In this document: positions 3,277 through 32,512 of the stretch, piece by piece
Layout of the letters: every line of letters starts with the position of its first letter
Position numbering within the stretch: the stretch's first letter is position 1
NCBI GenBank assembly: GCA_944364075.1
Contig: CALVVZ010000011.1
Location: 1-32,512 of the forward strand
Reading direction: 5' to 3'
Source: an uncultured Clostridia bacterium
GTDB lineage: Bacteria > Bacillota > Clostridia > Christensenellales > Aristaeellaceae
DNA length: 32,512 nt
Position numbers and translations under genes: made by a program
Notes under the pieces: generated by a model
What the model was told of the DNA's origin: nothing
The model's database searches: none
Seen by the model: only the letters and a program-made list of their open reading frames with translations

Positions 3277-3290
3277 CAGATTAACAACGG

Positions 3291-3321
3291 AGATCCGCTA
3301 TCCAAAGGATAGCGGATCTTT
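3291..3321 (+). terminator. terminator hairpin, left copy (interrupted T-run)
   Basis: AGATCCGCTATCC and GGATAGCGGATCT form a perfect 13-bp stem with an AAA loop. Only three Ts follow before the type-1 element begins with CAGACTG at 3322. The full T-run (TTTTTT) is found after the third copy of this hairpin at 3791-3796, so this copy looks like the left part of the original terminator, separated from its T-run by insertions. Confidence 0.8.
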
Positions 3322-3543
3322 CAGACTGTTGAAAAAGGCATATTTTTTTCATGGAACCGCAAGAAAAAATGAAGCTTCAGGTTCCCAAACTTGCAAGTAT
3401 TTCATAGCGTATGAGGACCGAAGGTTTCCAAAGGGCGATCGGGAAGCCCTTTGGTCGCGCCCGCAGGCGCGAAACCTTTTGTATCTGCAAGAATGCATAC
3501 AAAACTTGCAAAAAGAATGATAAAATATTTTGTCAACGCGCTG
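3322..3543 (+). mobile_element. type-1 structured repeat element, copy A1
   Basis: This non-coding 222-bp element has imperfect terminal inverted repeats (CAGACTGTTGA... and ...GTCAACGCGCTG). A second, inverted copy lies at 23662-23882; by eye the core (3390-3515) is about nine-tenths identical. The core can fold as a three-way junction: outer stem AGGTT/AACCT (3422-3426 with 3473-3477), arm CCAAAGGGC/GCCCTTTGG (3428-3436 with 3446-3454) and arm TCGCGCC/GGCGCGA (3455-3461 with 3466-3472). It is flanked by copies of the same terminator hairpin (3289-3315 and 3544-3570, one mismatch in 27 bp), as expected for a target duplication. No plausible protein is encoded. Confidence 0.75.
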
Positions 3544-3549
3544 GGAAAT

Positions 3550-3570
3550 CCGCTATCCAAAGGATAGCGG
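3550..3570. repeat. terminator hairpin, middle copy between two elements
   Basis: CCGCTATCC/GGATAGCGG with an AAA loop, identical to the hairpin cores at 3295-3315 and 3767-3787. This copy lacks a T-run; the type-2 element starts at the very next base. It is best read as the duplicated target shared by both insertions. Confidence 0.85.
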
Positions 3571-3766
3571 CAGGCTGTCAAAAAACCCCGGGGAGGCGTC
3601 GGAGGGGCCGAAGCCCCTTCGACTTTCATTCGTATCCGCCGGCTCTGCCGGCGGGGCGGGTTGTTGATTTTGCTTGCAAAATCAATTCCTTACAACTTCG
3701 GACGACCTCTGGTTGGCCGAAGTTGCTTTCTCAAAAAAGTGGCGGCGCCACTTTTTTGACACGCTG
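3571..3766 (+). mobile_element. type-2 structured repeat element, copy A2
   Basis: This 196-bp non-coding element begins CAGGCTGTCAAAAAA and ends TTTTTTGACACGCTG, giving 15-bp terminal inverted repeats (13 of 15 match). It is bracketed by perfect 21-bp direct repeats of the local terminator hairpin. It folds into five hairpins: 3598-3623, 3636-3654, 3664-3685, 3693-3725 (9-bp stem with a 15-nt loop containing CGACCTCTGGTTG) and 3731-3759 (13-bp stem). The inverted copy at 27377-27573 has compensatory changes in the fourth and fifth stems. A third copy begins at 32439. No ribosome site or credible reading frame was found. Confidence 0.8.
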
Positions 3767-3796
3767 CCGCTATCCAAAGGATAGCGGATCTTTTTT
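3767..3796 (+). terminator. terminator hairpin, right copy with intact T-run
   Basis: CCGCTATCC/GGATAGCGG with an AAA loop, followed by ATC and six Ts. Joined to the left flank at 3289-3294 it recreates a normal intrinsic terminator for the upstream peptidoglycan-binding protein gene. Transcripts reading through the first copy would carry both elements as a 3' tail and stop here. Confidence 0.8.
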
Positions 3797-23661: not shown

Positions 23662-23882
23662 CAGGCTGTTGGCAAAGTATTTTGCCTTATCATTTTTGCA
23701 AGTTTTGTATGTATTCTTGCAGATGCAAAAAGTTTCGCGCCTGCGGACGCGACCAAAGGGCTTTCCGATCGCCCTTTGGAAACCTTCGGGCCCATATGCT
23801 ATGAAAATCTTGCAAGTTCAGATATCTGAAGTTACATTTTCCTTGCATCTGTATGAAAAAGCATGATTTTTTCAGCAGTCTG
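23662..23882 (-). mobile_element. type-1 structured repeat element, copy B (inverted)
   Basis: This 221-bp element is the reverse-complement relative of 3322-3543. On the minus strand it starts CAGACTGCTGAAAAA and ends CTTTGCCAACAGCCTG. The three-way-junction core is kept: CCAAAGGGC/GCCCTTTGG is unchanged, while the other arm and the outer stem each change by a single base to G-U pairs (TCGCGTC/GGCGCGA; AGGTT/AACTT). Unlike copy A1 it lies between divergent genes (secG and the VTC gene), and no terminator hairpin is duplicated beside it. At most a few similar bases flank it. Apart from this element I see no gene in 23478-24023. Confidence 0.7.
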
Positions 23883-25425: not shown

Positions 25426-25437
25426 AGGAGGCATATG

Positions 25438-27219
25438 ATGAGAAACAGAAAGCTCGTCGCATGCCTGCTGACCGCACTACTGCTGCTGGGTGCTACGCCC
25501 CTGGGCCGCGCAGCGTGGGCATCGGAAAACGGAACGCTGATAGACACAAGCGACATGTTTACAGAGCGCGACCTGGAAACGGATTACAACGAAGAGAGCT
25601 GCGACTATATTACCCTATCCGATGAAAGCATCTCCACCACCGCTTCCCATGTTGCCATCAGCGGAAGCACGATTACCATTCAGGATGAAGGCATGTATAT
25701 TCTTTCAGGCACGCTTTCGGACGGTATGGTAATCATCGACGCGGAGGACACGGATAAGATTCAATTGATACTGAACGGCGTAAATATTGTCAGCAGCACG
25801 TCCGCCGCCATTTACATCCGCGAAGCGGATAAGGTGTTCATCACGACGGCTGCCGGTACGGAAAATACGCTGTCCAACGGCGGAGTATATGAAGCCATAG
25901 ATGACAATCACATCGACGCAGTTGTTTTCTCAAAAAGCGATTTAACGCTAAACGGTACAGGCACGCTGATTGTGTATGCCCCCGAAGGGCACGGCATAGT
26001 TTCCAAAGACGACCTGGTGTGTGCCAGCGGTGCGTATGAAATTACCACAGCCAGTCATGGGCTTTCAGGAAAAGACAGCGTGCGTATTGCTGGCGGAGAG
26101 TATACCATCACGGCCGGCAAGGACGGAATCCACGCGGAAAATGCCGATGATGCGAGCCTGGGCTATCTCTATATTGCAGGGGGAACGTTCTTCATCACCG
26201 CGGATGGCGACGGTATGAGCGCAGCTTCCTATCTCCTGGTGGAGGATGGCGATTTCAGTATTCTCTCCGGTGGCGGAAGTACCAACGCTGCACAGACAAG
26301 CGCCGGAAACGATCGTTTCTTCGGCTTTCCAGGTGACGCGCAGAGTGACACCCAGGAAGACGCTGAAAGCACCAAAGGGATCAAAGCCGGCAGCGAGTTA
26401 ATGCTTTCTCAGGGCACCTTTGTGATTGATTCGGCAGACGACGCCCTGCACACCAACGGTAATCTAAGTATCTACGGCGGAACTTTCCTGATTTCCACCG
26501 GTGACGACGGCATACATGCAGATAACGCTGTGCTGATTTCTGATGGTAGCATAGACATAACCCAAAGCTATGAGGGAATTGAGGGCCTGACCATTGATAT
26601 TACGGGCGGAACCATTACGCTGGTATCCAGCGATGACGGACTCAACGCCGCAGGCGGCAGCGATAGCAGCGGCTTTGGACGCGGCAGGGATATGTTTTCA
26701 ACCACGGAAGGTGCATACATCCACATTGCCGGCGGCATCCTGTCCATTGATGCATCTGGCGACGGCATTGATTCCAATGGCGATCTTTTGATGAGTGGCG
26801 GGGAAGTTTATGTGAGCGGCCCCTCGGGAAGCGGAAATGGCGCGCTGGACTATAACGGCAGCGGAACAATCACCGGCGGCATCATCATCGCCGCAGGCGC
26901 CTCCGGCATGGCGCAAAACTTCGACGCATCCTCTACGCAGGGCGTGATGATGGTAAATATAGGGTCTGCCGCTGCTGGAAGCACCATTACCCTCAGCGAC
27001 AGCGCAGGAAATGTGCTGCTCTCCTGGCAAGCCACAAAAGCATATGCCTCGGTAGTAATCAGCTGTCCGGAAATTGTGCAGGGCGATACGTACACCCTCA
27101 CGATCAATGGCACAGCTACACAGATTGTTATGAATTCACTGGTCTTCAGTTCCGGAGGCAGGGGTAACGGCAGCGACTGGGGTGGCAGCAAAGGCGGAGG
27201 CGGACGAAACCGGCCTTGA
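25438..27219 (+). CDS. secreted beta-helix protein, Cthe_2159/DUF4353 family
   Basis: The 593-residue protein begins with a signal peptide (residues 1 to about 27, ending GRAAWA). It then consists of many short repeats of the form GxxTIxxxGDGIxA (GGEYTITAGKDGIHAEN, GGTFFITADGDGMSAAS, GGTFLISTGDDGIHADN, GGTITLVSSDDGLNAAG, GGILSIDASGDGIDSNG), typical of a right-handed parallel beta-helix. The repeated GDG/DDG turns suit calcium binding. Clostridium thermocellum Cthe_2159 of this family binds acidic pectin-like sugars. The C-terminus is Gly-rich. The second of two adjacent ATGs (25438) is chosen for ribosome-site spacing; 25435 is possible. It ends the VTC-DUF4956 operon and is likely exported to the cell surface. 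Confidence 0.88.
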   Translation: MRNRKLVACLLTALLLLGATPLGRAAWASENGTLIDTSDMFTERDLETDYNEESCDYITLSDESISTTASHVAISGSTITIQDEGMYILSGTLSDGMVIIDAEDTDKIQLILNGVNIVSSTSAAIYIREADKVFITTAAGTENTLSNGGVYEAIDDNHIDAVVFSKSDLTLNGTGTLIVYAPEGHGIVSKDDLVCASGAYEITTASHGLSGKDSVRIAGGEYTITAGKDGIHAENADDASLGYLYIAGGTFFITADGDGMSAASYLLVEDGDFSILSGGGSTNAAQTSAGNDRFFGFPGDAQSDTQEDAESTKGIKAGSELMLSQGTFVIDSADDALHTNGNLSIYGGTFLISTGDDGIHADNAVLISDGSIDITQSYEGIEGLTIDITGGTITLVSSDDGLNAAGGSDSSGFGRGRDMFSTTEGAYIHIAGGILSIDASGDGIDSNGDLLMSGGEVYVSGPSGSGNGALDYNGSGTITGGIIIAAGASGMAQNFDASSTQGVMMVNIGSAAAGSTITLSDSAGNVLLSWQATKAYASVVISCPEIVQGDTYTLTINGTATQIVMNSLVFSSGGRGNGSDWGGSKGGGGRNRP

Positions 27220-27347: not shown

Positions 27348-27376
27348 TATCCGGCCAGGAAATTCCTGACCGGATC
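27348..27376. repeat. 29-bp terminator hairpin, left copy
   Basis: TATCCGG...CCGGATC with arms ATCCGGCCAGGAA/TTCCTGACCGGAT is a hairpin repeated without a mismatch at 27574-27602. The type-2 element starts at the next base. The 128 bp before it (27220-27347), after the beta-helix gene, shows no other feature. Confidence 0.88.
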
Positions 27377-27573
27377 CAGGCTGTCGAAGAAGTGGCTTAC
27401 GCCACTTCTTCGAGGCAGCAAATTCGGTCAACCAGAGGTCGCCCGAATTTGTAAGGAATTGATTTTGCAAGCAAAATCAACAACCCGCCCCGCCGGCAAA
27501 GCCGTCGGATACGAATGAAAGTCAGAGGGGCTGCGGCCCCTCCGACACCTCCCAGGGGTTTTTCGACAGTCTG
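27377..27573 (-). mobile_element. type-2 structured repeat element, copy C (inverted)
   Basis: This 197-bp element is the inverted relative of 3571-3766. Its ends (CAGGCTGTCGAAGAA and TTTTTCGACAGTCTG) are inverted repeats matching at 13 of 15 positions. It is flanked by perfect 29-bp direct repeats of the local hairpin. Relative to copy A2, the long-loop stem has changed from CAACTTCGG/CCGAAGTTG to CAAATTCGG/CCGAATTTG (27419-27427, 27443-27451), and the end stem from TCAAAAAAGTGGC to TCGAAGAAGTGGC with matching changes opposite (27384-27413). The TTGATTTTGC/GCAAAATCAA hairpin and the loop CGACCTCTGGTTG are unchanged. Confidence 0.82.
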
Positions 27574-27602
27574 TATCCGGCCAGGAAATTCCTGACCGGA
27601 TC
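27574..27602. terminator. 29-bp hairpin, right copy with T-rich tail
   Basis: Identical to 27348-27376. On the plus strand it is followed by ATCTTTTTATTTTT, making an intrinsic terminator for the beta-helix gene. It is also the first structure met by minus-strand transcripts after the DUF1653 gene. Confidence 0.82.
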
Positions 27603-27608
27603 ATCTTT

Positions 27609-27860
27609 TTATTTTTCCAACAATAATTTGCGGGCCTCGTTTTCATTCTCCGCAATATAGGTGAAGCGCTGAAAGACCTGTCCGTCGCGTTCCACGGTTT
27701 CCAACCACATGGCCGCGGGCCGTACCCACAAACCACGATTACCATAGAGCGCACGATATACCACCATATGTTCGAGTGTTTCGGAGTGCCGCGCCTCCCC
27801 CAGCAAAAGGTACAAGCCTCCCTTGAAGTGCCGGTAAACGCCCGGCTGTAATGCGCTCAT
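27609..27860 (-). CDS. DUF1653 domain protein
   Basis: The 83-residue protein is a single DUF1653 domain: [54 protein letters not shown]. The family forms a small beta-barrel-like fold and has no known function. It is often found alone or beside unrelated genes. The ATG overlaps the stop of the upstream ABC ATPase gene by 4 nt, so it is the last gene of the transporter operon. There is no signal peptide. Confidence 0.92.
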
Positions 27861-32438: not shown

Positions 32439-32512
32439 CAGGCGGTCAAAAAACTTCCCAAGAGGGGTCGGAGGGGGCGCAGGCTCGCTGACTTTCATTC
32501 GTATCCGACGGC
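32439..32512 (+). mobile_element. type-2 structured repeat element, copy D (cut by window end)
   Basis: The first 74 bp match the left end of the type-2 elements at 3571 and (inverted) 27573: CAGGCGGTCAAAAAAC, then GTCGGAGGGG, then CTTTCATTCGTATCCGACGGC. The first hairpin is more degenerate than in the other copies but keeps most pairs. The remaining 120 bp or so lie outside the window. Confidence 0.8.

Follow-up and report, generated by a model that had tools for sequence, protein, structure and literature searches.

Why does a 29-bp palindrome stand twice, base for base, around a small element in the space between two convergent genes of an uncultured Clostridia bacterium, and does the repeated sequence belong to the element or to the site that received it? 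The question arose in a window of 32,512 nucleotides (the whole stretch of DNA analysed; contig CALVVZ010000011.1 of assembly GCA_944364075.1), on which an earlier note had proposed, from the letters alone, that the duplicated hairpin is a property of the locus and not a part of the element.

A duplicated palindrome around a small mobile element

Direct comparison within the window confirmed the claimed lack of mismatch, the segments 27348-27376 and 27574-27602 being identical at 29 of 29 positions. The left copy, delineated by comparison, genome search and folding, is a complete palindrome whose single-stranded fold reaches -9.7 kcal/mol (z -4.8, with all shuffles worse), and the right copy, identified by comparison, is followed by ATCTTTTTATTTTT. 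Between them, on the plus strand at 27377-27573, lies a type-2 MITE of 197 bp without a transposase gene, recognized by its copies in the same genome. Sequence and motif searches place its terminal inverted repeats at 27377-27391 (left, plus strand, CAGGCTGTCGAAGAA) and 27559-27573 (right, minus strand, reverse complement CAGACTGTCGAAAAA). The whole arrangement sits, as the earlier note had it, between convergent genes, namely a plus-strand ORF at 25435-27219 encoding a Cthe_2159 carbohydrate-binding domain protein (Cthe_2159-like) and a minus-strand ORF at 27609-27860 encoding a DUF1653 protein. A perfect 29-bp repeat at a distance of 226 bp is not a product of chance, its probability over the whole window being about 1e-9 by our estimate; these repeats are the target-site duplication (TSD) of a small mobile element inserted at a palindrome. 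We found no empty site for the 27348-27602 locus among its relatives, which included no genome of the same genus.

The window holds further copies of such elements. A type-1 MITE of 222 bp with the ends CAGACTGTTGAAAAA / CAGCGCGTTGACAAA (3322-3543, plus strand) is flanked by a 33-bp TSD, whose left copy at 3289-3321 contains the hairpin CCGCTATCCAAAGGATAGCGG and whose right copy at 3544-3570 shows one mismatch and was struck by the next insertion. The hairpin at 3550-3570 within this right copy serves at the same time as the left repeat in the 21-bp TSD of a second type-2 MITE (196 bp; 3571-3766, minus strand); the right repeat of that TSD occupies 3767-3787 and is followed by ATCTTTTTT. The hairpin is thus present three times in the region 3289-3787 (at 3295, 3550 and 3767) because two elements, type 1 and then type 2, inserted successively. 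The 29-bp repeat is indeed unrelated to the hairpin at 3550-3570. Another type-1 copy (23662-23882, minus strand) shows only a 5-bp direct repeat, AAGTT, and no palindromic TSD, and a last type-2 copy (32449-32512, plus strand) is cut by the end of the contig. In many contigs of this MAG the motif stands 57-92 bp from an end, and therefore the MITE repeat probably breaks the assembly.

Copies of the element elsewhere in the genome and family

A search of the whole genome for the type-2 MITE gave 50 matching places, of which at least 40 are complete or partial copies, with ends conforming to CAGnnTGTCrAAAAA. The terminal motif CAGNNTGTYRAAAAA was counted 247 times in this genome, as against none in the reversed control. 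Duplicated palindromes are found at 15 of the 22 full copies with legible ends, and differ in sequence and length each time. Fourteen of these passed the TSD test, scored up to the element boundary, and one (L004) was added by eye, the same palindrome being present on both sides; the 22 copies with both ends found include L024, which has almost no right flank. Two further copies (L010 and L023) carry a different hairpin on each side and probably arose by recombination between copies, L005 and L025 have a hairpin on one side only, and L006, with a 6-bp repeat only, and L014 have none. There are also MITEs nested, with duplication, in the hairpins of other MITE copies (L007, L055, L059), and a second genus of this family has MITEs of similar ends whose palindromic TSDs measure 26, 32 and 28 bp. 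As a separate observation, we noted very short elements of 44-48 bp that consist of hardly more than two terminal repeats placed back to back (L118:1501-1548; L122/L144 at G013:C70:31350; L062:16-59).

Dozens of further copies with unrelated duplicated palindromes bear out the proposal that the duplicated hairpin is specific to the locus. Association of the 29-bp hairpin with the element at unrelated loci was sought and is absent, since the 3.12-Mb assembly contains the 29-mer at no other place, even when 3 mismatches are tolerated. The earlier note had also read the lack of mismatch as a sign of a recent event. This is weakly suggested by the perfect repeats and by the 100% identity of the element to a copy on contig C10; against it, the repeats flanking that identical copy have already diverged at 2 of 26 positions.

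An IS1182-family element as the probable autonomous partner

At the start of contig C12 of the same assembly we observed an IS end with a promoter-like box, a ribosome-binding site and a start codon, and this left end adjoins no obvious hairpin; an intact transposase with matching ends was not seen in this assembly, only the IS end at the C12 edge. The left end CAGNCTGTYRAAAAAGGNCGC, its terminal 21 bp used as a pattern, recovered 22 matches, spread over 11 of the 308 family genomes, but none in the reversed control, and the left flanks of these matches are nearly all hairpins. A complete autonomous IS was present in one of the genomes (G189, locus L140), having 1493 bp and a single gene for a 478-aa transposase between terminal inverted repeats. 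Its ends, CAGCCTGTCAAAAAAGG / CAGCTTGTCAAAGAA, are matched by the MITE ends, the ends of the ~1.5-kb autonomous element conforming to CAGnCTGTCrAAAAA, and both its sides carry the 25-bp, perfectly palindromic TSD AAACCACCCGTCAAACGGGTGGTTT. Relatives of this IS measure 1473-1733 bp, and its own length falls within the size range of the IS1182 family, about 1.3-1.95 kb. In L140:2578-2587 the target supplies, as its first base, the last letter of the transposase stop codon TGA: the element ends in ...AGCTG and the TSD starts with A.

The transposase scores 415 bits against the IS1182 equivalog model NF033551 (cut-off 270), contains DUF772 and DDE_Tnp_1_6 domains, and has the conserved residues D147, D281 and E408. 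While a search of the PDB with its sequence gave no match, its predicted structure (pLDDT 86) identified the Tn5 transposase as the closest solved fold (Z 14.5, rmsd 5.4, 271 residues aligned). On this sequence evidence we identify the predicted autonomous partner as an IS1182-family element with a DDE transposase, and the shared ends together with the whole-palindrome TSDs mark the element of the window as a putative MITE of this IS1182 subgroup. Two other candidates were set aside: in the IS1182 remnants of the same genome the TIR-like motif is followed by about 130 bp more of conserved sequence, which closes with a different end, GGGCGTGTTGCAGAAA, and full-length IS1182 relatives from this bacterial family whose ends read GGGGCTGT show no palindromic direct repeat.

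The duplication follows the palindrome

Scanning 84,980 species genomes, we found 366 relatives of the IS and examined the best 80. Among these best 80 of 366, a TSD of at least 8 bp was found in 43 of the 58 close relatives from Clostridia with both ends legible, and the long TSDs of these 43 are nearly all complete palindromes of 20-41 bp. Together with the MITEs, the relatives drawn from this set give 59 distinct events, in which the TSD spans 16-64 bp with a median of 27 (16-43 bp apart from one case of 64 bp); a 10.5-bp periodicity in these lengths is weak (p about 0.03). In 55 of the 59 the axis of the palindrome falls on the centre of the TSD, and mean pairing about that centre is 0.89, whereas random segments from these loci give 0.26 (sd 0.018). 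Pairing falls off across the TSD edge, from 0.92-0.97 immediately within it, through 0.66 at the edge base itself and 0.53-0.59 at the first two external bases, to about 0.3 further out. When the best hairpin was sought in empty sites of about 150 bp by a search blind to the TSD, its two ends lay no more than 3 bp from the TSD edges in 39 of 58 cases; several of the other hairpins found in this way pair a few bp further out, often in flanking A/T tracts. Flanking A/T runs typical of terminators are present at 39 of the 59 targets. The target is thus a palindrome of any sequence, and what is duplicated is the entire palindrome, with the axis at the centre and the borders at the stem foot or no more than 2-3 bp away.

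Relatives from Bacilli, about 47% identical, behave in the same way, with TSDs of 27 bp in Enterococcus, 30 bp in Sutcliffiella and 24 bp in Peribacillus. One exception to duplication of the whole palindrome is L219, where a 64-bp palindromic TSD lies inside a palindrome reaching about 60 bp further on each side, possibly an assembly artefact, and the TSDs of L157 and L170 pair less well than the others. Eight further copies (L147, L166, L168, L178, L192, L201, L202, L205) have a different hairpin on each side; these, like L010 and L023 among the MITEs, are as expected if two insertions recombined, which is probably what happened.

Empty sites

The origin of the hairpin in the target can be seen where an uninterrupted counterpart exists. 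In the window's own genome a type-2 MITE interrupts hypA, the gene for a nickel metallochaperone (L017 / L115 / L117; G000:C1:56366-56705), with duplication of 21 bp containing the codons YKDYTLV, in a target whose stem has 6 bp and whose loop has 7 nt. The hypA homologue of genome G175 has an uninterrupted frame in which YRDYKLV occurs once, and hence represents an empty site at the protein level. Similarly, in the Enterococcus faecium plasmid NC_017962 an IS1182-family element lies between copies of a 27-bp palindrome, and the joined flanks match the plasmids NC_010980 and NZ_CP102071 end to end (99.6 and 99.8%), with the palindrome present once. For the insertion in Oscillibacter ER4 no empty site was found within its genus. 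The argument of the earlier note, that hairpins duplicated in two unrelated cases are unlikely to be chance or element-borne, is hence upheld by the further copies and by these sites, at which the locus possesses a single hairpin before insertion.

Proposed mechanism and alternatives

We consider it highly probable, judging from the sequence comparisons, that the repeats at 27348-27602 are the TSD left by a non-autonomous IS1182-type MITE, which a related autonomous IS would have inserted at the palindrome through its transposase. Such an IS subgroup would read the secondary structure of DNA and not its sequence. The target palindrome may be extruded as a hairpin or cruciform, a step that in itself we favour with some reserve; the element's two 3' ends would then be attached to the hairpin at its 5' foot, one on each strand, and repair of the gaps would copy the hairpin on both sides. 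More generally, we lean towards a subgroup of DDE transposases in which the target's secondary structure, rather than the geometry of the transposition complex, dictates TSD length: the ends would be joined at the two feet of the extruded hairpin or cruciform, and therefore the whole hairpin would be copied. As the element would land on the hairpin and copy all of it, the size of the duplication would follow the shape of the target. A bidirectional terminator would then keep an A-tract and hairpin on one side and a hairpin and T-tract on the other, because both its halves survive, and the kept halves may make an insertion between convergent genes tolerable.

A different substrate, with the hairpin recognized on single-stranded DNA, either on the lagging strand or on the strand displaced behind RNA polymerase at a terminator, rather than as a duplex cruciform, is possible though less likely. 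The terminator-type flanks at 39 of 59 targets would suit it, as would the use of stems as short as the 6 bp with a 7-nt loop in hypA, which are poor extruders from duplex. However, a DDE reaction that duplicates its target must cut both strands at two feet, and a hairpin on one strand offers no obvious second site. We judge it improbable that a transposase dimer binds B-form DNA with one subunit on each inverted-repeat arm and makes two nicks without extrusion. The two-fold symmetry of a palindrome could be used by a dimer and the weak 10.5-bp periodicity is in its favour, but the arms share no sequence and the nicks are 16 to 64 bp apart, whereas a rigid dimer would need constant spacing. 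Random insertion, with selection retaining the events in terminators and the duplication being an ordinary TSD, is very improbable: intergenic terminators are indeed tolerant sites, but ordinary TSDs have a fixed length while here the centre falls on the palindrome axis and the ends follow the stem, and the coding palindrome in hypA was struck likewise. A hairpin that belongs to the mobile unit itself, moving with the element or carried at its ends as a terminator, is rejected: nearly every copy adjoins hairpins, but the palindrome differs at every copy, the 29-mer is unique in the genome and the empty sites hold one copy.

Relationship to known systems and implications

The preferred reading, insertion at the feet of an extruded palindrome, has its nearest parallel in IS1272 and TnSha1 of staphylococci, which belong to the same transposase family and likewise target hairpins of any sequence, often terminators (PMC4923244, PMC5678879). 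Unlike the insertions described here, in which the whole hairpin is kept, doubled and present on both sides, IS1272 deletes the hairpin wholly or in part and generates no TSD (Wan et al. 2017, PMC5678879; Furi et al., PMC4923244). Stem-loop duplication was drawn, without an example, as the alternative pathway b in a model of structure-dependent transposition (Wan et al. 2017, PMC5678879, Fig 13), and the elements reported here supply many natural examples of it. A review on the IS1182 family is cited as reporting palindromic targets (PMC4923244, PMC5678879), and to the extent conveyed by these citations a palindromic target preference, in addition to the family itself, is common to those members and ours. 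An archaeal IS1182 MITE with 4-bp repeats has also been listed (PMC3852290). The SMR-A elements of Haloquadratum are similarly small, have inverted ends and enter palindromes, those of other mobile elements; they differ from the window element, which has a TSD, in producing no target duplication (PMC3119063). Identity with PATE or IS605 was rejected, as the window element has inverted repeats and a TSD, while PATE of Haloquadratum has neither terminal inverted repeats nor target duplication (PMC3119063).

We found no description of whole-hairpin duplication in the open-access literature, subscription papers and ISfinder being outside the scope of this search. Presumably ISfinder lists a wide range of repeat lengths for the IS1182 family, long ones included, and its curators may thus have seen the phenomenon. 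TSD length is normally fixed and identifies the transposase; Tn5, to which our predicted structure is closest, makes a duplication fixed at 9 bp, in contrast to the variable, palindrome-length TSD of the present elements. These cases are a warning for tools that annotate MITEs and ISs on the premise of short repeats of fixed length. They also provide many examples of an outcome that the 2017 model only drew, and allow hairpin-duplicating and hairpin-deleting members of one family to be compared directly. If the variable TSD length marks the foot of the hairpin as proposed, each insertion would be a natural record of the palindromes that open in the living cell.
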